This document shows, in pieces, positions 2,518-42,781 of a stretch of DNA of 44,689 nt. Location: IMG/VR virus record IMGVR_UViG_3300005577_000050, positions 1 through 44,689 of that record; one strand, written 5' to 3'. This stretch comes from a virus. The notes below the pieces were generated by a model. That model did not search any database. It worked only from the letters and a program-made list of their open reading frames with translations, and was not told the origin of the DNA. Positions within the stretch are counted from its first letter, which is position 1. Every line of letters starts with the position of its first letter. Made by a program: the position numbers and the translations under genes.

Positions 2518-4317
2518 CTATCCGAATAGTAGTTCAACGATAACGATCCCGGAGCCGCCATTACCGCCGGCAACCTGAGCACCTGAGTTAACGGTGCACC
2601 CTCCGGACCCTCCGGCCCCCTGGTTAGCAGTGGCGTTTCGTCCTGCGTTTGTTCCGTTTCCGGTGTTACCGTAAGCTCCTCCTGCACCGGACCCAGCAGC
2701 GCCTCCAAAACCTCCCATGGAAGAGAATGGAGTGGAGCCGGTCACCACAAATCCAGGCTCTCCGGGTGCGCCGTCTTGAAGGATCTGTCCAGTTCCTCCG
2801 GTCGTGGCCACCGATCCTGCGGCGGATACTCCTACCGCTAGCGCGGTTCCACCAGCGCCACCTGCTCCACCCTTACCGATGACCAGGGCACCAAAGCTGG
2901 AGTCGCCGCCAGCACCTCCGGCGTTTGCACCGGCTGTTCCTCCTGTACCGGAAGCCCCCACAGTTACCGTTACTGGGAAGGTGATAGTGCTTGTGGCGAT
3001 GGTAGATTCTGCAAAGGAACCGCCTGCACCGCCTCCTCCGTGTGCTGCTGTAGTTCCTGTAGCGGTAGCGGCCCCTCCGCCGCCTCCGCCACCTCCGATG
3101 CAGCGCACGCGCAGAGCGTAAGCCCCCTGGATTTGGGCCTCGGTGAGAGACCCAGAGCCTGTGAAAGTAATGGCAGCACCTGTGGGGTTGTTACGCATGC
3201 CAACGGCCACGTTGCCTGCCTTGGAGCGCACGTTCTGAAGAGATAGAGCATTGCCACCCAGGTCCGAGATATCGGTGGTGTTTCCCTGGAACTTGCCTCC
3301 GAACACCTTGACGAAGGAAGCTCCCGAGGCCACCTTCAGACCTGTGTTCATACCTTCCACGTACGGCTCGAAGATCATAACGTCTGTAGCATTGGCTCCG
3401 ATATCAAATGCAATCGTGTTCGGGTTGCTTTCGATATCGACGTGGTCCAGGAGGATGGAGCTGGTGGCCGTGCCGGTGATCTGGACTCCGGAGCCCGTAC
3501 CGGTAGCAATGCTGAGAACGCGAGTGTAGGCCACGGTGTTGGAGTTCGATCCATTGCCGAATTTGATACCAATAGGATTTACCCCGGAAGCGGTCACTCG
3601 ACAGTTGCTGATGACATTGTAGTAAGTGATGCCACCGCCACCATTGGAGGCATCAATGCCGACCAGGGGGCTGACCGTATTGTTAGTGCCGATAAATAAA
3701 TTGTCCAGCGTGGAGTCAATGAAATAAGTCATATCGATAGCGCAGCCTGCTCCGGGGTTGGAGCAGAACATGGTGAAATCCCTAAGATTGATTCTCCGGT
3801 TGGTGGTGTCCACCATCTTCATGGCTGTAGCGAATGTAGAGGTATTCCAGTTCAGGATGGTGCCCATGCGGGAGACGCCACGGATCTCCACGCTGGAGGA
3901 GAATTGAACCTGAACATCCAGGGTATGAGATCCAGCACCCAGGATGATGCAACCTCCAGCCGACAGGGTAGCCATAGCATTGTTGATCGCGGTGCCTGTG
4001 GAGGCTCCTGCGGGAATGAAAATCTGACCATCACCGACAACGCGCGGGTTGGCCGCCTTCAGTCCGGTGATGTCCGTGGTGTTGGTCGAGATGTTTGTGG
4101 CATCCGTGGACTGTGCAGAAATAACGTCATTCAATTTCTTGGTGACAGTCCCCGCGACTCCTGAACCGGTGACGCCGACGTAAGTCTCAATAGCTGCCAC
4201 GGAATCGTTGATGTTGTCATGCTGCGTGGCGTGGTTCAGTGCCCCTGGGCTATTTTGCGGATCTCCTGCGCCAGGGTTGGTAAAGCTGTCGATGCTGGTG
4301 GGATAGTTCGTGGCCAT
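2518..4317 (-). CDS. Tailspike-like minor tail protein with beta-helix and Gly-rich C-terminus
   Basis: This 599-residue protein probably starts at ATG 4317, which overlaps the upstream stop by one base (TAATG). An in-frame ATG 51 codons upstream would run deep into the previous gene and is unlikely. Residues 1-60 are the tail-anchoring module shared with the 1765-2508 protein. Residues about 95-380 begin GDGQIFIPAGASTGTAINNA and repeat short beta-strands with Asn-rich turns, as in pectin-lyase-like parallel beta-helices of tailspikes that bind or cleave surface polysaccharide. The last 160 residues are a Gly-rich domain with runs of six to nine glycines. No catalytic residues can be assigned, so receptor binding is better supported than depolymerase activity. 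Confidence 0.78.
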   Translation of the reverse strand: MATNYPTSIDSFTNPGAGDPQNSPGALNHATQHDNINDSVAAIETYVGVTGSGVAGTVTKKLNDVISAQSTDATNISTNTTDITGLKAANPRVVGDGQIFIPAGASTGTAINNAMATLSAGGCIILGAGSHTLDVQVQFSSSVEIRGVSRMGTILNWNTSTFATAMKMVDTTNRRINLRDFTMFCSNPGAGCAIDMTYFIDSTLDNLFIGTNNTVSPLVGIDASNGGGGITYYNVISNCRVTASGVNPIGIKFGNGSNSNTVAYTRVLSIATGTGSGVQITGTATSSILLDHVDIESNPNTIAFDIGANATDVMIFEPYVEGMNTGLKVASGASFVKVFGGKFQGNTTDISDLGGNALSLQNVRSKAGNVAVGMRNNPTGAAITFTGSGSLTEAQIQGAYALRVRCIGGGGGGGGAATATGTTAAHGGGGAGGSFAESTIATSTITFPVTVTVGASGTGGTAGANAGGAGGDSSFGALVIGKGGAGGAGGTALAVGVSAAGSVATTGGTGQILQDGAPGEPGFVVTGSTPFSSMGGFGGAAGSGAGGAYGNTGNGTNAGRNATANQGAGGSGGCTVNSGAQVAGGNGGSGIVIVELLFG

Positions 4318-29642: not shown

Positions 29643-29909
29643 TGGTCCTTCCGCTTGCCCCGAAGGGCCGCTCTTCCCGCTTTTGTTTCTGTGTCCAACC
29701 GGCCTTACAACACAGACTGTCCTCTCCCTGGCTCGCTCACGCAAGGGCTACAGTGGAATTGGCGTCAAGATCAGCCGTTCGGGGGATGCCGCCTCAACCG
29801 TTCGGTCAAGCTTTGCCCGTAGGGGTTGACGCCATCTCTGGTCAACTGCCACTGTTCAGGTCGGCAGGGCCCGCAACGAGCGAGCCCACCGCATACGAGG
29901 GAGAAGATC

Positions 29910-30929
29910 ATGTCAAAGGAGAGCGCTCAGTGGCTCGCGGAAAACGTGCTGGTGGGCTACGGCCGTCAGGCCTGGCACTTCAACGCTGAACTCGGCTCCG
30001 GCGCGCAGCACTATGACGGTGCGATCCCGATGGAGCGCGTGCTCAGCCTGTTCGACTCGGCCGACCCGATCGCTGTGCCGGCTTTCGCTCAAATGCCTGA
30101 CGGCAGCATGGTCCCCATCGCCGGTAAACAGGCCATCGCTCGCCGGGATGGCACGGCAGTCTATGGCGTCATGAGCGACAGCTACACCATCCACCGCCAC
30201 CGAGAGCTGGTTAACGGCATGGCGCACATCCTGACCGACGACGCAGGCAACCACGGCGCGCTAGGGATCAGTAGCGCCGGTCTGCTCGACGCCGGCGCGG
30301 TCGCTTGGGTCAGTGCGTCGCTCGCGGATACCGCGACGACAGCGGCGGGTGTCGACTTCGTCACCTATCTTCTGGCGTACGGCTCGCACAACGGTCGCCA
30401 CGCCACGTCTTGGAAGCTCGTCAACCAGTTGGTTGTCTGCGACAACACGCTGGAGATTGCCACTGGCGAGTCCACTACTCGTTTCGCGGTCAAGCACACC
30501 TCCAACTCCCTCAACCGCATCGGTGGGGCCCGCGAGGCGCTTGGCCTGATCCTCGCCGGTCAGGATGACTTCGCCCGCGAGGTTGAGGCTCTGTGCTCGG
30601 TAGAGGTCACTGACGCCGACTTCTGGCGGATCGTTGATCAGTTGGCTCCCGCCCCGGCGGATGACGCGACCGGTCGCGGCGCAACCATGGCGCAGAATAA
30701 GCGCGACGCGGTTGTGAGCCTGTACCGTTCTGACCCGCGCGTCGCTCCCTGGGCGGGTACGGCTTTCGGTGTGCTGCAGGCATATAACACCTACTCGCAC
30801 TGGCAGGCTCCCGGTACCGGCACGGGCGTGGTTCAGGCACGCAATATGACTCGCAACCTTACGGGTCAAGCTGCCGAAGCGGATGCGCTTGCTCTGTCCG
30901 TCATCCGGGGTATTCTCGCGGGCGTCTGA
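29910..30929 (+). CDS. DUF932 phage/plasmid-like protein
   Basis: This 339-residue protein starts at ATG 29910 behind AGGGAGAAG; an ATG at 29826 lacks a ribosome-binding site. Residues 1-110 (MSKESAQWLAENVLVGYGRQ, then VYGVMSDSYTIHRHRELV) and 165-230 (SWKLVNQLVVCDNTLEIATG) match the DUF932 (TIGR03299) family found in phages and plasmids, often near replication or recombination genes. Its biochemical role is unknown. The conserved C-terminal part (YNTYSHWQAPGTGTGVVQAR, MTRNLTG) is present, so it is full length. A strong terminator follows. Confidence 0.85.
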   Translation: MSKESAQWLAENVLVGYGRQAWHFNAELGSGAQHYDGAIPMERVLSLFDSADPIAVPAFAQMPDGSMVPIAGKQAIARRDGTAVYGVMSDSYTIHRHRELVNGMAHILTDDAGNHGALGISSAGLLDAGAVAWVSASLADTATTAAGVDFVTYLLAYGSHNGRHATSWKLVNQLVVCDNTLEIATGESTTRFAVKHTSNSLNRIGGAREALGLILAGQDDFAREVEALCSVEVTDADFWRIVDQLAPAPADDATGRGATMAQNKRDAVVSLYRSDPRVAPWAGTAFGVLQAYNTYSHWQAPGTGTGVVQARNMTRNLTGQAAEADALALSVIRGILAGV

Positions 30930-30940
30930 TCCGTCATTCC

Positions 30941-30972
30941 GGCGAGCCTCGCCCCACCCGGCGAGGCTCGCC
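30941..30972 (+). terminator. Terminator after DUF932 gene
   Basis: A 13-bp perfect stem (GGCGAGCCTCGCC with GGCGAGGCTCGCC) with a 6-base loop, 12 bases after the stop. No T-run, as is typical for GC-rich actinophage terminators. Confidence 0.8.
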
Positions 30973-31013
30973 CCATGATCGTTCAGCCGACCTACCCGAA
31001 TGGGAGAAAAAGA

Positions 31014-31079
31014 ATGCTGACGAACGTAGTGGTGAACGCCAAGTCCTCCAACTCCAAGACCGGCCCACGCTGTGTTTGA
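31014..31079 (+). pseudogene. Orphaned original 5' end of the downstream Cys-rich protein gene
   Basis: A 21-residue frame from ATG 31014, behind GGGAGAAAAAG, reads MLTNVVVNAKSSNSKTGPRC and stops at 31079. It matches the start of the 31484-32170 protein (MLTNVVLNPKSSNSKVGP) but is cut off by the HNH gene, which begins at 31072. At the DNA level the two copies differ at many synonymous positions. It still carries the good ribosome-binding site. It is the remnant of the 5' end of that gene displaced by insertion of the endonuclease. Confidence 0.75.
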
Positions 31080-31494
31080 GACAGACCGAATCTCCAAACT
31101 GTTTTGGCGTGGCGTAGTCGCCGGTCCTAACGGGTGTTGGGTACGGATCAAGGTTGACCGCAACGGGTACAGCAAGACTCGTCTAGCGGGTAAGGATGCC
31201 CTTGCCCATCGATTCACCTACCAGCGATTGGTCGGGCCGATCCCTAAGGGGATGCAGCTAGACCACCTATGCCGGAACCGTGCATGCTGCAATCCGGCTC
31301 ACCTAGAGCCGGTGACTCCCAAAGAGAACGCAGCGCGCGGTCTAAAGGCCAAGCGCACACACTGCCCGCAAGGGCACCCGCTCACCCCCGACAACCTTGT
31401 AGGGTACGCGCTACGTAAGGGATACCAGGACTGCCGCAAGTGCCGAAATGACCGCCAGACCGCCAAGCGAATGGAGAAACGAAATGCTAACTAA
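31072..31494 (+). CDS. HNH homing endonuclease inserted in a gene's 5' end
   Basis: This 140-residue protein starts at GTG 31072, inside the remnant. It has an HNH_3-type core: AHRFTYQRLVGPIPKGMQLD with His46, then Asp64-His65, Asn74 and His77 in ACCNPAHLEPVTP. The C-terminal zinc ribbon has Cys98, His102, Cys121 and Cys124. Its stop overlaps the ATG of the next gene, and its own 3' end supplies a new 5' end of that gene. Such free-standing HNH enzymes cleave copies of a target gene lacking the insertion. The regenerated end protects the host gene from inactivation. Confidence 0.88.
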   Translation: MFETDRISKLFWRGVVAGPNGCWVRIKVDRNGYSKTRLAGKDALAHRFTYQRLVGPIPKGMQLDHLCRNRACCNPAHLEPVTPKENAARGLKAKRTHCPQGHPLTPDNLVGYALRKGYQDCRKCRNDRQTAKRMEKRNAN

Positions 31495-32170
31495 TGTCGT
31501 GCTGAACCCTAAGAGCTCTAACTCTAAGGTCGGCCCCATTCCGACGATTAACCGGCCGATCAAAGAATCGTGTCCTCGCACCTGCCCGTTCCTGCCCAAG
31601 AATCTCGGCGGTAATGGTCTGTGCTATGCAAACGGCATGATCAACGCCGCCGCATCCGGTGCTGCCGGAACCTTGTCGGTAGATGATGTAGTGGCGAAGA
31701 TTGAAGCGGGCAAGCACAAAGCCGGCGGCAAGGTCAGGGGAGAAGTGTTCGGCGCGCCCAAGTACATCCGCGATCGAGTAGTCGGCGACATTGTCAACGA
31801 CCCCGATGGGGAAGCCACGGCGGATGTCGAGTACGTGTTGCAGGTGGCGGAGATTGCTGACCGAGTCGGTATGGTTGCCTATGGTTATACTCACGCTTTC
31901 GACATGCTTAGCGCCGATGACGTGGCAGCTATAAACGCCTCCGGTTATGTTCTCAACGGGTCAGCCAACACTGTTGCCGATGTTGAGCGCATTGTGGCGC
32001 TCGGCATGCCTGCCACAATCGCGACCGATGACCTGGTGGACGGTACGATCATCGCGGGCAAGCGCGTGGTTACCTGTCCCGAACAACTCGGCAAGGTTCG
32101 TAGCTGTGCCGATTGCGGTCTGTGCGCAAAGCCGAACCGCGCGGCTCTGATCCGATTTTTGATTCACTAG
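31484..32170 (+). CDS. Cys-rich conserved phage protein, 5' end rebuilt by HNH insertion
   Basis: This 228-residue protein starts at ATG 31484, overlapping the HNH stop by 11 bases. It has an N-terminal KESCPRTCPFLPKNLGG with CYANG, a middle VAYGYTHAFDMLSADDVAAI, and a C-terminal TCPEQLGKVRSCADCGLC. The pattern (CPxTCPF, CYA, late C-x2-C-x2-C) resembles a phage family I know as gp88/DUF7227-like; this needs checking. The cysteines may hold an iron-sulfur cluster or zinc. Its native ribosome-binding site is now 470 bases upstream, so expression depends on read-through coupling from the HNH gene. Confidence 0.72.
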   Translation: MLTNVVLNPKSSNSKVGPIPTINRPIKESCPRTCPFLPKNLGGNGLCYANGMINAAASGAAGTLSVDDVVAKIEAGKHKAGGKVRGEVFGAPKYIRDRVVGDIVNDPDGEATADVEYVLQVAEIADRVGMVAYGYTHAFDMLSADDVAAINASGYVLNGSANTVADVERIVALGMPATIATDDLVDGTIIAGKRVVTCPEQLGKVRSCADCGLCAKPNRAALIRFLIH

Positions 32171-32323: not shown

Positions 32324-32932
32324 ATGCCTGCCATTCAAGTCGGAGTACACAGTTGCCCTTGCGAGGTAACTCAGCCGCCGCCTCACCGGTATCCGGTCGG
32401 GGCGGTATTCTACTGCCCGCATTGCGGGCAGGCATGGGAGCGACGCTCCCACACATCCAGCCGCCGTTCGGGAGGCGGTATCGTCATCCGTGGTGTTCTG
32501 GTAGGAGGCATCGGTCGCGCGGCTGACGTTCCCTACTGGGCCCGGCTCGGGCGGAACGTGGCACGGGATGCCGCCATGTCGCGGGCCCGCGTCGCCTACG
32601 AACAGGCCTACATGGCAGACGCCGCCGAGTTGCGCGCGGCGGTTGAGGCCGGCTCGGTGCCGGCCGGCGTCAGCGTACGGGCTTACCGGGAGCACCGCGA
32701 CGCGACAGAGTCGCCGGCGCTGCGGTTGTTCGGAGGCAGCGTCGCCGTGCTGTGCGCGTTGTGCGCGACAGGATGGGGCGTGCTGTGGCTCGCGGGAACG
32801 CACACAGGGGCGTGGCACGGCGTAGCGGTACTTGGGGTGCTGTGGACTGCCGCCTGCATCGGAGCGGTAAGCAGGGGCGTAGCACGGCGCAGAGAGGCGT
32901 CCAGCGCCGTTCTCAGCCGCCTAAAGCCGTAA
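32324..32932 (+). CDS. Zinc-ribbon protein with two membrane segments
   Basis: This 202-residue protein starts at ATG 32324. The N-terminus carries four cysteines (HSCPCEV and FYCPHCGQAWERRS), a likely zinc ribbon. The middle is helical and Ala/Arg-rich. Residues about 134-155 (LFGGSVAVLCALCATGWGVL) and 162-182 (AWHGVAVLGVLWTAACIGAV) are transmembrane helices, followed by a basic tail. A cytoplasmic zinc domain tethered to the membrane by a C-terminal hairpin is predicted. Its 3' end overlaps the convergent HNH-BldC gene by 20 bases. Function unknown. Confidence 0.65.
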   Translation: MPAIQVGVHSCPCEVTQPPPHRYPVGAVFYCPHCGQAWERRSHTSSRRSGGGIVIRGVLVGGIGRAADVPYWARLGRNVARDAAMSRARVAYEQAYMADAAELRAAVEAGSVPAGVSVRAYREHRDATESPALRLFGGSVAVLCALCATGWGVLWLAGTHTGAWHGVAVLGVLWTAACIGAVSRGVARRREASSAVLSRLKP

Positions 32933-33386
32933 CCTCGGATTCTCGGTACCGACGATGGCCGCCGGGCGTACGAATACATGTGAGACGCCCGGCGGTTGCC
33001 CATCGGGTGACTGTCTTGGAGTCAACCCGCAACCGTTGTGCTACCTCAGCCGGGGTAAGCAGAGTATCCGGACCGTGGTGAGGGTTCTCAGCAAGGGCCA
33101 GAGACACCACGGATTCGGTACGGACATAAGGGGCAGTGTCTCGGCCGTTGTCTTCAAGGGTCTTCAAGCTGAGGTGAGCCGGGTTGAGACAGAGGCGATT
33201 CTGGCACCCGTGATCCACCGTCATGCCGTCCGGGATCGGGCCAACGAACAAAAGGTAGGCAACCCGGTGTGCGGGGGTAGACCCGATCACACCATACCCG
33301 TCCGGGTGTTTGCTGCCACACCATCGCCAACAGGTAGTGATCGGGTTGATCTGCACGAGCTCGGAGAAGTCAGAAAGTATCGTCAT
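32913..33386 (-). CDS. HNH endonuclease fused to a BldC-like helix-turn-helix
   Basis: This 157-residue protein starts at ATG 33386. Residues 1-80 are an HNH_3-type domain: CWRWCGSKHPDGYGVIGSTP, His40-Arg41, Asp58-His59 in MTVDHGCQNRLCLNPAHLSL, Asn68 and His71. Residues about 108-156 (TLLTPAEVAQRLRVDSKTVT, RWATAGRLTCIRTPGGHRRY, RESEV) closely match BldC, the small MerR-like DNA-binding regulator of Streptomyces development. About 25 residues link the domains. The enzyme probably uses the BldC-like part to choose sites, or acts as a regulator derived from a homing nuclease. A strong promoter lies directly upstream. Confidence 0.88.
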   Translation of the reverse strand: MTILSDFSELVQINPITTCWRWCGSKHPDGYGVIGSTPAHRVAYLLFVGPIPDGMTVDHGCQNRLCLNPAHLSLKTLEDNGRDTAPYVRTESVVSLALAENPHHGPDTLLTPAEVAQRLRVDSKTVTRWATAGRLTCIRTPGGHRRYRESEVTALGG

Positions 33387-33656: not shown

Positions 33657-34115
33657 GTGAGTGTTTACACCAACCTTTGCAAGTACTGCCTGACTGAGTT
33701 CACCTGGGAGAGACTGCCTGGTCAACGTGGCAGGGACCGCACTAGGTGTGATGACTGCGTCGGGGACCGAGCCTACCGCAACGGCCATGGGCGATTAACC
33801 TGCCCCTGCGGTGAGCCGCGAGAGAGAGGCAAAGCCCTCTGCGAGGGCTGCAAGGCTATCCCGGGTAGCGTCTACTGTCCCCAGGCCGAATACGACGCCA
33901 AGCTTAAGAAGCAGAACGGCGTGTGCGCTATCTGCAAGCTGCCAGAACCGGTACCCAACCGAAGGCTAAGCGTAGATCACGATCACGAAACCGGACAGCG
34001 CAGAGGTTTGCTCTGCACTAAGTGCAACATCGGTTTGGGTTGGTTCAAAGAAGACCCCCGTCTTCTTTTTGCGGCTGCGCTATATATCAAAAAGGAGTCC
34101 CTCTTTTTACCGTAA
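33657..34115 (+). CDS. Endonuclease VII-like HNH nuclease
   Basis: This 152-residue protein starts at GTG 33657 behind GAGAGGGAA. Residues 70-145 match the recombination endonuclease VII family: Cys90 and Cys93 (GVCAICKLPEPVPNRRL), the DHDH core at 107-110 (SVDHDHETGQRRGLLCTKCN), Cys120 and Cys123, then IGLGWFKEDPRLLFAAALYI. Enzymes of this family cut branched DNA or act as homing nucleases. The N-terminal 65 residues carry two further zinc pairs (CKYC, CDDC, CPCG, CEGC). It is a single gene with its own promoter and terminator, typical of a mobile nuclease cassette. Confidence 0.85.
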   Translation: MSVYTNLCKYCLTEFTWERLPGQRGRDRTRCDDCVGDRAYRNGHGRLTCPCGEPRERGKALCEGCKAIPGSVYCPQAEYDAKLKKQNGVCAICKLPEPVPNRRLSVDHDHETGQRRGLLCTKCNIGLGWFKEDPRLLFAAALYIKKESLFLP

Positions 34116-34135: not shown

Positions 34136-34168
34136 AAAAGCATGCTTTCTAATAGAAAGCATGCTTTT
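34136..34168. terminator. Bidirectional terminator
   Basis: A 14-bp stem (AAAAGCATGCTTTC with GAAAGCATGCTTTT) with a 5-base loop, flanked by A-runs and T-runs on both sides. It separates the convergent endonuclease VII-like gene and the leftward small-gene operon. Confidence 0.9.
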
Positions 34169-36991: not shown

Positions 36992-38689
36992 TTATTTGGT
37001 TCCCGGTACCGAGCCCGGGTTCTGGCGAGGCGTCGGCTCCGGGTTGTTTACCGTCTTCGGGCCTGCTCCGCGCTCTCCAGGACCCTGCTGGGGCGTGTTA
37101 GGGCGTCCCTCTGAGGGCTGAGGCTGGGCAGCGGGCGGTACGGCGTCTGCGGGCGCGTTGGAGCCGTCCTTGCCGTCCAGGGCAGCACGAATCTGGCTGA
37201 CCACAGCCAGCAAACCAGGCTCTTGGAACAACTGCGGAGTGACTTGGCAAATCTTGAGCGCCATCGTCAGCGCCCGGTCCTGGGAGGAGTCCTCTTCAGG
37301 CATGTCGCTCTGCTCGAAGCCCGCTGCCGTGACCGTGGTTTCCGGCTTGAGCAGGCCCAGCTTGTAGAGCGCCTCAGCCTCAGAGGCCATGTTCGGACGG
37401 CTGATCAGGTCTTCTCCGTCAAGCTCGAAGAAGTAGGTGTAAGCGTCCTCTTCGCTCATGCCGGCTTCGATAGCCATCGAGATAAGAAGACCCATGACAG
37501 CATCGCCGAACAGCTTCACGCCGGGCATGAAGTGTAGGCGCACGGTGTCCTCAGCGACCTGCCAAGAGCCCCAGTGAGACGATGCAGCGAGTGCCATGCC
37601 CATCATCTGCTCGGCCGGCATGTCGAAGCCCACGGCCAGGCGACGGATAAGCTCATCCCGCAAGTCCTTGGCCACCAGGTCCAACTGAGTGGAGAACGTC
37701 AGGTGGCGAACGGCGTCGGCAGCCTCGTCAGGGACGGTCATGATCAGCGGCACGACGGCGGCGGCGCTGGATCGGTCCTTGATCGGGGTAACCATCGCTT
37801 CGATGATCGCCGCGACCGTGGGGTCTTCCTCCTGGTCGTCCTCGGGAGCCGTAGCGCCCAGGACGGTAGCAGAGTTCGGCAGGATCAACACGCCGGCACC
37901 CGCCAGGCGGGAGTCGATGATGCTGGAGACGTACATGGTCAGCGCGTTGAGCTCACGAAGGATCGGCAGCACAGCCTGCATGGACGAAATCGCCAGCCGA
38001 TGGAACTGCGGGTCCGGACGCCAGAACTTGATGAGCATGATGTCGTCTCGGTTGTACGGGACGTTATCGATGAGCACCGTCACGCCATCTCGGTCCTCGC
38101 GCACATCATCCCGAGAGCGCACACTCCAGGTGTAGTCCAGTAGGCGACGCTTGGAGCGCCGGCGATCCTTGGCGGCGGTGGGCAAACCCACCAGCAAGCC
38201 CTCACCAGCCACGAACAGCATGATGCCGGCGTAGCGACGCATTTCGTCCGCGCCCTGGGCCGAGGTAATCTCATCCCAAAGCTGAAGCATGATCTTATCG
38301 TTGGTGGTCAGACGCTTTTGCTCGGACAGGCGTAGAGAAGGCCCGTTGGCCTGCTTACGCGAGAGGCACATTTCCACGCGGCTCATGCCGGTGCCGAACA
38401 GGTTGGCGGCGTAGGACACCTCGCCGACAATCTTGAAGAAACCCCATGCCTCACGCTGCCAGTCCTGGCTCTGCACGCTGTAGGGCAGCACATCGCCGTC
38501 CTTGGTGCGCTCGATCACCTTGGACGCAGCAGTCAGCGAGCGGCGAGAGATAGGGGCCTTCTCGCGGTAAGCCAGCTTGACGGGATGACGGTCATCACGA
38601 ACCGGGAGCGGCACAGCAACGCTGGAAACGCCGTACGGCACCGACACTCTAGAAGTCGGTGCCCAGGGAACGCGCGGAGAAGGGCTCAT
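36992..38689 (-). CDS. Portal protein
   Basis: This 565-residue protein starts at ATG 38689 without a ribosome-binding site at the usual spacing. It has the layout of actinophage portal proteins: an N-terminal part with SYAANLFGTGMSRVEMCLSR, the core LIKFWRPDPQFHRLAISSMQ and ELNALTMYVSSIIDSRLAGA, the stem/crown helices LDLVAKDLRDELIRRLAVGF with DMPAEQMMGMA, and a disordered Pro/Gln/Gly-rich tail from about residue 500. The dodecameric ring docks the terminase and the neck proteins. It follows the terminase genes, but is separated from the protease by 13 kb of accessory genes. Confidence 0.9.
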   Translation of the reverse strand: MSPSPRVPWAPTSRVSVPYGVSSVAVPLPVRDDRHPVKLAYREKAPISRRSLTAASKVIERTKDGDVLPYSVQSQDWQREAWGFFKIVGEVSYAANLFGTGMSRVEMCLSRKQANGPSLRLSEQKRLTTNDKIMLQLWDEITSAQGADEMRRYAGIMLFVAGEGLLVGLPTAAKDRRRSKRRLLDYTWSVRSRDDVREDRDGVTVLIDNVPYNRDDIMLIKFWRPDPQFHRLAISSMQAVLPILRELNALTMYVSSIIDSRLAGAGVLILPNSATVLGATAPEDDQEEDPTVAAIIEAMVTPIKDRSSAAAVVPLIMTVPDEAADAVRHLTFSTQLDLVAKDLRDELIRRLAVGFDMPAEQMMGMALAASSHWGSWQVAEDTVRLHFMPGVKLFGDAVMGLLISMAIEAGMSEEDAYTYFFELDGEDLISRPNMASEAEALYKLGLLKPETTVTAAGFEQSDMPEEDSSQDRALTMALKICQVTPQLFQEPGLLAVVSQIRAALDGKDGSNAPADAVPPAAQPQPSEGRPNTPQQGPGERGAGPKTVNNPEPTPRQNPGSVPGTK

Positions 38690-41159: not shown

Positions 41160-41815
41160 CAGATCTCACCGTTCGCCCAGGACTCCAACATGTCCAGCCC
41201 GCTGTCCAAGAACGCAGACTCCACGGCAGCCAAGTCAGAAGCACCCATGAATCGATCGATCTCCTGAACGAATGCCCACAGACGATCGATCGGCAGATTC
41301 AGAAAGCAATACTCCTGGTGCTCACCGTCAGCACTGACACCGGTTAGCTTGAGAGTGACAGTCTCTCCATCGGCTCGAGAAACCTTAACGTTGCCTTCTC
41401 CGAAAGAACGCTCATCATTACACTGCAGCACAGAGCGGACTAGGGCCAGATCGATCTCCCAGGGCTGCGAGTAAGTGCGGGACCACTCGGCGTCGCGGGC
41501 GCAAGAGATGCACACCAGCGTCTCGCCCAGGCCGTTGATAGTGGGCACGTTGATGGCAACAGTGTTGGCCGGCATCGGCAACAGACACTGATCACAGAAG
41601 TGGCCCTCCGGATAGCGCGCGTCGTCCAGCGGCACGCTGTCCAGGTTAATAGAGATAGTGAAGTCCAGCACGAGCGGCTGCGCGGCTCCCCAGCCGTACG
41701 CCACCTCGGCGTGATAGGTCTTCACGGCTTGCGTGGTGAGCACTCCGGGCGAACTGTAATACACGTACTGCTCATTCTGGTCCACGCCTGGCTTGTCGAT
41801 GCGTTGCTGGTCCAT
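41159..41815 (-). CDS. Conserved-looking hypothetical protein with CxxC
   Basis: This 218-residue protein starts at ATG 41815. It has a beta-rich N-terminal half (AQPLVLDFTISINLDSVPLD), a zinc-like pair of CxxC motifs (FCDQCLLPMPANTVAI and LVCISCARDAEW), and a C-terminal half with VKVSRADGETVTLKLTGVS and an amphipathic helix (DRLWAFVQEIDRFMGASDLA). The zinc ribbon is inserted between two alpha/beta parts. No family was recognised. Confidence 0.6.
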   Translation of the reverse strand: MDQQRIDKPGVDQNEQYVYYSSPGVLTTQAVKTYHAEVAYGWGAAQPLVLDFTISINLDSVPLDDARYPEGHFCDQCLLPMPANTVAINVPTINGLGETLVCISCARDAEWSRTYSQPWEIDLALVRSVLQCNDERSFGEGNVKVSRADGETVTLKLTGVSADGEHQEYCFLNLPIDRLWAFVQEIDRFMGASDLAAVESAFLDSGLDMLESWANGEI

Positions 41816-42414
41816 CAGTCTCTCTTCTCTCCGAAGGTCTTGTAGACCCAGTCAGCAAACATCAGAAGTTCCTCTCTGTCAAGGTCACTCTTTACTGAGT
41901 TCGCTTTGTTGGAGATGACCTGAACGTTGCCTTTTACGTAACCTAGAGACGGTACGATCTTGTCCAGATTGGCCGAATTGTTTCCGCTCTTACCTTTTCC
42001 CATGATCAAAGGTATGCCTAGGATCGGGCACACAGACGGAATGACCACATCTTTCTTCTCAATATCGAAAGGAAGACCCTGCTCCGCAGCCCTACGTCTT
42101 GCCGTAACCCACAGCCTTCCGGCCCAATCATTCTCCCGGTGGGCGCGCCCGTACTCACTAACGCAGGACTTACACCAGGTACTTAGGCCGTCGACATTTC
42201 GCTTACCCTCTTGGAACCAGGATTCAGGATGCCACTTATCACATCGCGTACAGAACTTGTGACCGTGTTCATTTCTGGCTGAGCCTATTCCGTAGCCCTT
42301 CATTCGCCTCACTGGACGAAGATCCAGGCCCATGCGGTGCTGCATATAATGGGATTGACAAAGGCCTAGGCCTTTATTGTCCTTCGTCCCCGTACATTCG
42401 GGAAACACGCACAT
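41815..42414 (-). CDS. HNH endonuclease with two N-terminal zinc ribbons
   Basis: This 199-residue protein most likely starts at ATG 42414, with TTG 42435 as an alternative; it overlaps the preceding gene by 41 bases. Residues 1-30 (MCVFPECTGTKDNKGLGLCQ, SHYMQHRMG) form a C-x4-C...C-x2-H zinc motif. Residues 55-84 hold two CxxC pairs. Residues 95-199 contain CPILGIPLIMGKGKSGNNSA, NLDKIVPSLGYVKGNVQVIS and NKANSVKSD, a pattern of phage HNH nucleases (LD.I.p..GY.kGNv.viS..aN..K). It is probably a homing nuclease that entered at the end of the DUF3310 gene. The GC content seems lower than its neighbours. Confidence 0.75.
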   Translation of the reverse strand: MCVFPECTGTKDNKGLGLCQSHYMQHRMGLDLRPVRRMKGYGIGSARNEHGHKFCTRCDKWHPESWFQEGKRNVDGLSTWCKSCVSEYGRAHRENDWAGRLWVTARRRAAEQGLPFDIEKKDVVIPSVCPILGIPLIMGKGKSGNNSANLDKIVPSLGYVKGNVQVISNKANSVKSDLDREELLMFADWVYKTFGEKRD

Positions 42415-42781
42415 TTCCTCGCTCAAGCTCTTCAATCTCCTTTTGGATATAGGCCTGGGCCTTTCTCAAATCCTCAAGGGTGTTCGTCTTGTAACCTGCG
42501 CGAAGTAAGTACTTGAGCGAATTTCCCCTTAGGTATGGAAAGTACTTTAGCACATCCCACACCTCTACGCCAGGGATTCGAGTGTAGTGGTTAGGGTGGG
42601 TCACCGGATCGTCAGGGTCGTGTTCGTCAATAGGAGAAACCGGACCACTTTCGAACGGGTCGTAGACGCAGTTAGGGTCATCGCACAGTAAGTCAGGAGA
42701 TTCAGGGCCATAGTCGATCAAAAAGCCCTTGCCGCAGGGGCAAGCCTGATCGGTGACGTACGGATGTACCGGCTCACTCAC
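42374..42781 (-). CDS. DUF3310 protein (SaV-like)
   Basis: This 135-residue protein starts at GTG 42781 (8-base overlap). The N-terminus has a zinc-like CPCGKG...CDDPNC. Residues about 60-120 are the DUF3310 domain: HPNHYTRIPGVEVWDVLKYF, LRGNSLKYLLRAGYKTNTLE, DLRKAQAYIQKEIEELE. This family is linked to nucleotide metabolism in phages, often near replication or modification genes. The active function is unproven. The 3' end is overlapped by the HNH gene, so it may have been cut or altered there. Confidence 0.8.
   Translation of the reverse strand: MSEPVHPYVTDQACPCGKGFLIDYGPESPDLLCDDPNCVYDPFESGPVSPIDEHDPDDPVTHPNHYTRIPGVEVWDVLKYFPYLRGNSLKYLLRAGYKTNTLEDLRKAQAYIQKEIEELERGNVRVSRMYGDEGQ

Follow-up and report, generated by a model that had tools for sequence, protein, structure and literature searches.

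Two diverged starts of one phage gene around an HNH endonuclease gene: a likely case of homing without an intron or intein

The interrupted DUF7227 gene and its uninterrupted relative

The window analyzed here is the whole of a 44,689-nucleotide stretch of viral DNA (IMG/VR record IMGVR_UViG_3300005577_000050), in which an HNH endonuclease gene lies between two versions of the same protein start (Table 1). The upstream version is an open reading frame at 31014-31079 that reads MLTNVVVNAKSSNSKTGPRCV followed by a stop, 21 codons in all, while the downstream version begins at 31484 with MLTNVVLNPKSSNSKVGP and runs on to 32170. A first-pass annotation of the window had described this arrangement, and its coordinates, peptides and the early end of the upstream copy all hold. 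It had also taken the downstream copy to open a full-length gene, and the product is indeed full length when compared with that of L001, the uninterrupted relative described below. In the upstream copy the ribosome-binding site GGGAG (31002-31006) stands 7 bases before the ATG at 31014, and 18 codons lead to the insertion junction. In the downstream copy GGAG (31473-31476) also stands 7 bases before the ATG and is followed by the 18 codons that match the native end. The upstream site is as good as had been noted, but the shortage implied for the downstream copy is not there, as its site is equally good. The repeat reaches approximately 16 bases 5' of the start codon and covers the ribosome-binding site in both copies. 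The HNH gene, from its GTG at 31072, overlaps the stop codon of the truncated reading frame (31077-31079), and its own stop codon (31492-31494) overlaps the rebuilt reading frame, and part of the rebuilt 5' end falls within the 3' portion of the HNH gene.

Table 1. Features of the interrupted locus and its neighbors in the window.
Feature	Position	Strand	Basis
DUF932 gene, upstream neighbor	29898..30929	+	PF06067, 112 bits; directly upstream in L001 too
Scar formed by the native 5' end of the DUF7227 gene	30998..31067	+	Sequence, repeat alignment, one corresponding start in L001
HNH_3 endonuclease gene, 140 aa, GTG start	31072..31494	+	Pfam HNH_3, PHROG 826; absent from L001
Rebuilt, diverged 5' end of the DUF7227 gene	31469..31537	+	14/54 coding bases and 3/18 residues differ
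Restored full-length DUF7227 gene, 228 aa	31484..32170	+	PF23872; 80% identical gene in L001
Downstream neighbor gene	32324..32932	+	L001 5036-5623, 54% identity over 196 residues

The HNH protein scores 52.5 bits for Pfam HNH_3, a nuclease domain of the homing type with a cut-off of 24.8 bits, and matches PHROG 826 (HNH endonuclease) at E 1e-43, and a comparison with PDB sequences returned no match. The restored gene belongs to DUF7227 (84.1 bits against a cut-off of 27), a phage family present also in Pseudomonas and cyanobacterial phages. Its repeated N-terminus holds an N-x-K-x-G motif (x, one residue) that can be recognized in distant relatives, so loss of this N-terminus would probably matter.

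Group I introns and inteins often carry HNH enzymes, and the two starts could in principle be the flanks of a splice site. Only four bases separate the first copy from the HNH start, however, and the HNH gene overlaps the second copy, which leaves an intron no space. In addition, a stop codon ends the upstream frame, the downstream gene needs no splicing to be complete, and an Rfam search at the HNH locus gave no group I intron match even at E 5. An intron or intein is extremely improbable on these grounds, in line with the first-pass annotation, and, judged from its sequence, the HNH gene is free-standing.

L001, from IMG/VR, is the sole close relative that was found. It carries the DUF932 gene, one DUF7227 gene and a homologue of the downstream neighbor in the same order, and it shares further genes with the window up to a 91% identical gene at 36992-38689. 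Since the downstream neighbor is conserved, the insertion is syntenic on both sides. At the insertion place L001 has no HNH gene and a single DUF7227 start preceded by L001's own upstream sequence, which is the kind of relative that the first-pass annotation had predicted, here seen in one genome. Its locus is approximately 26% diverged from the window in DNA, and its start agrees with the first copy at 37/51 bases and with the second at 35/51, a comparison that does not tell which copy is native. Genome-collection scans returned no relatives, and viral scans with L001 and with an alignment of the two sequences returned only L001. Neither kind of scan found a donor phage for the rebuilt start.

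Several other features were observed around the locus. Two more endonuclease-like genes lie within 3 kb of the HNH gene. One, on the minus strand (32913-33386), joins a second HNH_3 to a helix-turn-helix of the MerR type, and the other, on the plus strand (33657-34115), is of the endonuclease VII type. A search of L001 gave no match to either and, as the same holds for the HNH gene under study, the interval appears to carry three nuclease insertions relative to L001. Just 3' of the endonuclease VII gene, 33 bases (34136-34168) are 97% identical to their own reverse complement and are possibly a terminator. Hairpins between the DUF932 gene and the gene start (30919-30976) produce a sub-threshold 6C RNA match (30.4 bits, gathering score 47), and L001 likewise has a short GC-rich hairpin there. 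In the late region, a Cys/His-rich reading frame on the minus strand (41815-42435) resembles an HNH or endonuclease VII-type gene.

Divergence of the two gene starts

The coding parts of the two copies are 74% identical in DNA, and 8 of their 14 differences fall at third positions. Fifteen of the 18 residues are the same, and the three changes compare with 8.8 expected under random substitution (0 of 20,000 simulations), in agreement with the earlier claim that the copies differ mainly at synonymous positions. Their similarity is also beyond chance, as had been supposed: the 40 N-terminal residues encoded by the downstream gene reach a score of 81 when set against the 900 bases upstream, compared with a maximum of 58 among several hundred unrelated flanks, where higher values came from the same locus in L016. 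The window query also scored weakly against L023 and L041, which was rejected as chance matching. Such mostly silent divergence indicates that the copies separated while both were functional and favors import from another phage, which the first-pass annotation had proposed, over a local duplication.

Silent divergence between two starts would also be explained, without any transfer, if two tandem DUF7227 genes had existed ancestrally and an HNH insertion accompanied by deletion had removed most of the first. Yet L001 has a single copy, and the seven cases in other genes that are described below, such as terminase and methyltransferase genes, would each need the same two-step loss, which makes this origin improbable.

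The same layout at other HNH_3 loci

To place the window among comparable loci, HNH_3 loci in IMG/VR were reduced to 141 distinct elements, their flanks were compared for a shared peptide in the same orientation, and hits were assigned by eye to a layout of truncated gene end and complete gene. Besides the window, seven unrelated loci combine a complete gene on one side of the HNH gene with a shortened, diverged copy of that gene's end on the other, giving 8/141 elements. The 5' end is concerned in seven of the eight, the window included. These are the 5' ends of a DNA methyltransferase gene in L158 (68 codons, 81% amino acid and 69% nucleotide identity), a winged-helix gene in L066, where the HNH reading frame is fused to the native start, a terminase gene in L182, unnamed genes in L160 and L180, the latter with the HNH gene in opposite orientation, and, in L177, a gene that we take from its motif to be VRR-NUC-like. 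Only L093, found identically in L114, concerns a 3' end, that of a terminase gene (82% amino acid and 68% nucleotide identity). All eight loci score 81-173 against a chance maximum of 40-58, a maximum that leaves out duplicate loci and a homologous terminase. Among 417 control windows without an HNH gene, five passed 34-38 bits; these hits were tandem paralogues or other repeats, and none of the five had a truncated end beside a complete gene. The 141 elements held no near-identical pair of copies, though this would be the easiest kind to detect.

As the window comes from an IMG/VR record that is probably metagenome-assembled, two related phages might have been joined in assembly. The chance of this is next to nil, as no long word is shared at the junction, the layout recurs across samples, and L093 and L114, which come from two separate assemblies, match without a difference over 4,338 bases.

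Some matches of the survey were set aside as unrelated, namely the tandem HNH pairs in L035 and L091 and low-complexity matches of high GC content. L123 was left uncounted, as its match across the HNH gene spans eight residues (NVTVWWVP, 2160-2200 and 3215-3250) and does not begin at a gene start; it may be a decayed instance of this layout. L120 holds a perfect direct duplication of approximately 177 bases or more (1124-1300 and 2081-2257, 957 apart) that is unrelated to the HNH gene. When the L158 methyltransferase was used as query, the scan found no sequence but itself. The rebuilt methyltransferase of L158 (2088-4334) also has an apparent intein, with intein splicing and LAGLIDADG matches, which would place two kinds of homing element in one gene.

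Silent bias is common to nearly all of the pairs. Residue changes are fewer than under random substitution in 7/8 (P < 0.002), the exception being L160 (P 0.10), and L158 has 13 changes where 37.5 are expected. The scar is probably free of selection, so this bias suggests that the copies diverged in separate genomes before coming together. A local duplication of the gene start upon insertion, followed by drift, would be simple and require no donor. A drifting scar would not spare residues as is seen in the window and in L158, however, and this origin also sits poorly with the sharp differences in codon composition in L158 and L093 and with the lack of near-identical pairs among the 141 elements. 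It is strongly disfavored and, in our judgment, very improbable.

In L158, GC3 is 0.54 (37/68) in the rebuilt 68 codons, 0.96 (65/68) in the native scar (P 2e-8) and 0.87 in the rest of the restored gene (P 8e-10 against the rebuilt stretch). An unguided change-point search places the break at codon 63, and none of 500 shuffles gave one as strong. No more than five codons lie between the limit of the foreign stretch and that of the duplicated one. L093 has a GC3 of 1.00 in its native 3' scar and 0.54 in the end that replaces it, with low values both in the latter half of the terminase gene and in the HNH gene. L115 and L116, relatives of L093, have a 58% identical HNH gene in the same place after the terminase gene, without a 3' scar. 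The best break in L182, at codon 579, is unrelated to the duplicated stretch, and change-point tests on L066, L180, L177 and L160 gave no informative break.

In the window, GC3 is 0.65 and 0.66 for the whole DUF7227 gene and the HNH gene, 0.89 for the native scar and 0.77 for DUF932, and the change-point test found no break inside the DUF7227 gene. As its body and start are alike in composition, import of the start alone and import of the whole gene are not told apart here. A foreign module comprising the HNH gene and an entire DUF7227 gene may have replaced the native gene, with the 18 codons as a leftover and the rescue as a by-product, and the HNH enzyme may or may not have caused this. The lower GC3 of both genes than of the scar and DUF932 agrees with such a replacement, as do the numerous named-phage HNH genes that run into the start of an intact downstream gene with no scar. 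In L158, on the other hand, the foreign stretch stops at the duplicated stretch and not at the gene end, and the recurrent coincidence of an HNH gene with a truncated end requires that the enzyme be involved. We consider wholesale replacement unlikely.

Flanking duplication was seen in none of 18 HNH regions taken from named phages. In named actinophages (L196, L197, L198, L200, L203, L204, and L211), the HNH gene and the start of the next gene commonly share 4-22 bases, with no visible scar; these could be old insertions that have lost the native end.

A proposed route of insertion and its counterparts

We consider it likely that the window records homing without an intron, in which the endonuclease gene entered the DUF7227 gene together with a divergent 5' end from another phage and so restored the gene. 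From the anatomy, the uninterrupted relative, the silent-site divergence and the recurrence we infer the following order of events. The HNH gene would have entered after codon 18, and the ribosome-binding site and at least the first 18 codons of the divergent 5' end would have arrived with it. In the founding event, the enzyme would cut the recipient gene near codon 18 during a mixed infection, the downstream broken end would copy the gene start of the donor plus the adjoining HNH gene, and the upstream end would be joined without homology, with the native start remaining as a scar. Once formed, the unit could home symmetrically.

Reading in frame into the full gene body, the new 5' end would make the host gene intact again. 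Its different spelling should let the rebuilt start escape the match to the enzyme's target, and should keep it from recombining with the scar and losing the insert. The rebuilt end is thus probably resistant to cleavage, as the first-pass annotation had also proposed. Indeed, it must differ under this scheme, because an identical copy would restore the target and permit loss of the insert by recombination, and the absence of near-identical pairs noted above is then expected. The translation start of the native gene would now precede the HNH gene. L158 has a chain of overlaps similar to that of scar reading frame, HNH gene and rebuilt start in the window and, given these overlaps and the fusion in L066, the HNH gene seems to use the translation start of its victim.

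The closest likeness is to mobile endonuclease ORFs of fungal mitochondria (Allomyces atp6; Glomus atp6, atp9, cox2, and nad3), which lie in a gene and bring a diverged copy that replaces its native end (PMC3630166; see also PMC4019555, PMC6279837). For Glomus atp6, identity between the two ends is 63.5% at the DNA level and 91% at the protein level, and the authors inferred an import by horizontal transfer (PMC3630166). The window shares with these ORFs the duplicated gene end flanking an endonuclease gene and the mainly silent divergence. In the fungal cases, however, the carboxy-terminal end is replaced, whereas the window has a replaced 5' end and only L093 of the eight a 3' end. The fungal enzymes are also LAGLIDADG or GIY-YIG enzymes of mitochondria, while those described here are HNH_3 enzymes of phages.

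Free-standing endonuclease genes are known from T4, where SegF, SegG, and SegE act through co-conversion of flanking DNA into a relative and marker exclusion (PMC2988022). Like the HNH gene of the window they are free-standing, but they adjoin their targets, and that source mentions no partial duplicate of the end of an interrupted gene. The free-standing mobE in Aeh1 nrdA and mobA in the T4 topoisomerase gene 60 are, as in the window, inserted in coding sequence; their target genes stay split and two polypeptides reassemble (PMC2988022), whereas the DUF7227 gene is back to full length compared with L001. Engineered home-and-rescue drives pair a gene-cutting nuclease with a recoded rescue copy (PMC7968924); being Cas9-based and built for insects, they resemble the window in principle only.

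Targeted searches and keyword searches of two recent papers on HNH and homing endonuclease genes (PMC12724721, PMC10448857), with most of the subscription literature lying outside this range, gave no account of insertions that rebuild a gene end. Within the literature searched, we thus found no description for phages or for 5' ends. The idea put forward in the first-pass annotation was largely right, and the layout generalizes beyond the window.

To our knowledge, a homing endonuclease that enters a gene is expected either to rely on an intron or intein for keeping that gene functional or to leave it split. The loci described here would add a third way in phages, in which the damaged gene end is supplied as a diverged replacement. 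This may explain free-standing endonuclease genes that lie flush with, or overlap, the start of a gene. We see an even chance that phage HNH genes repeatedly form natural home-and-rescue elements, which would cut within a gene end, in most cases the 5' one, carry a recoded, resistant replacement and capture the translation start of the victim gene. If so, the native-type end should be cut and the rebuilt end spared in eight independent pairs. Overall, these would be natural counterparts to recoded-rescue gene drives, and a homing route free of introns and inteins would recur in 8 of 141 HNH_3 elements.
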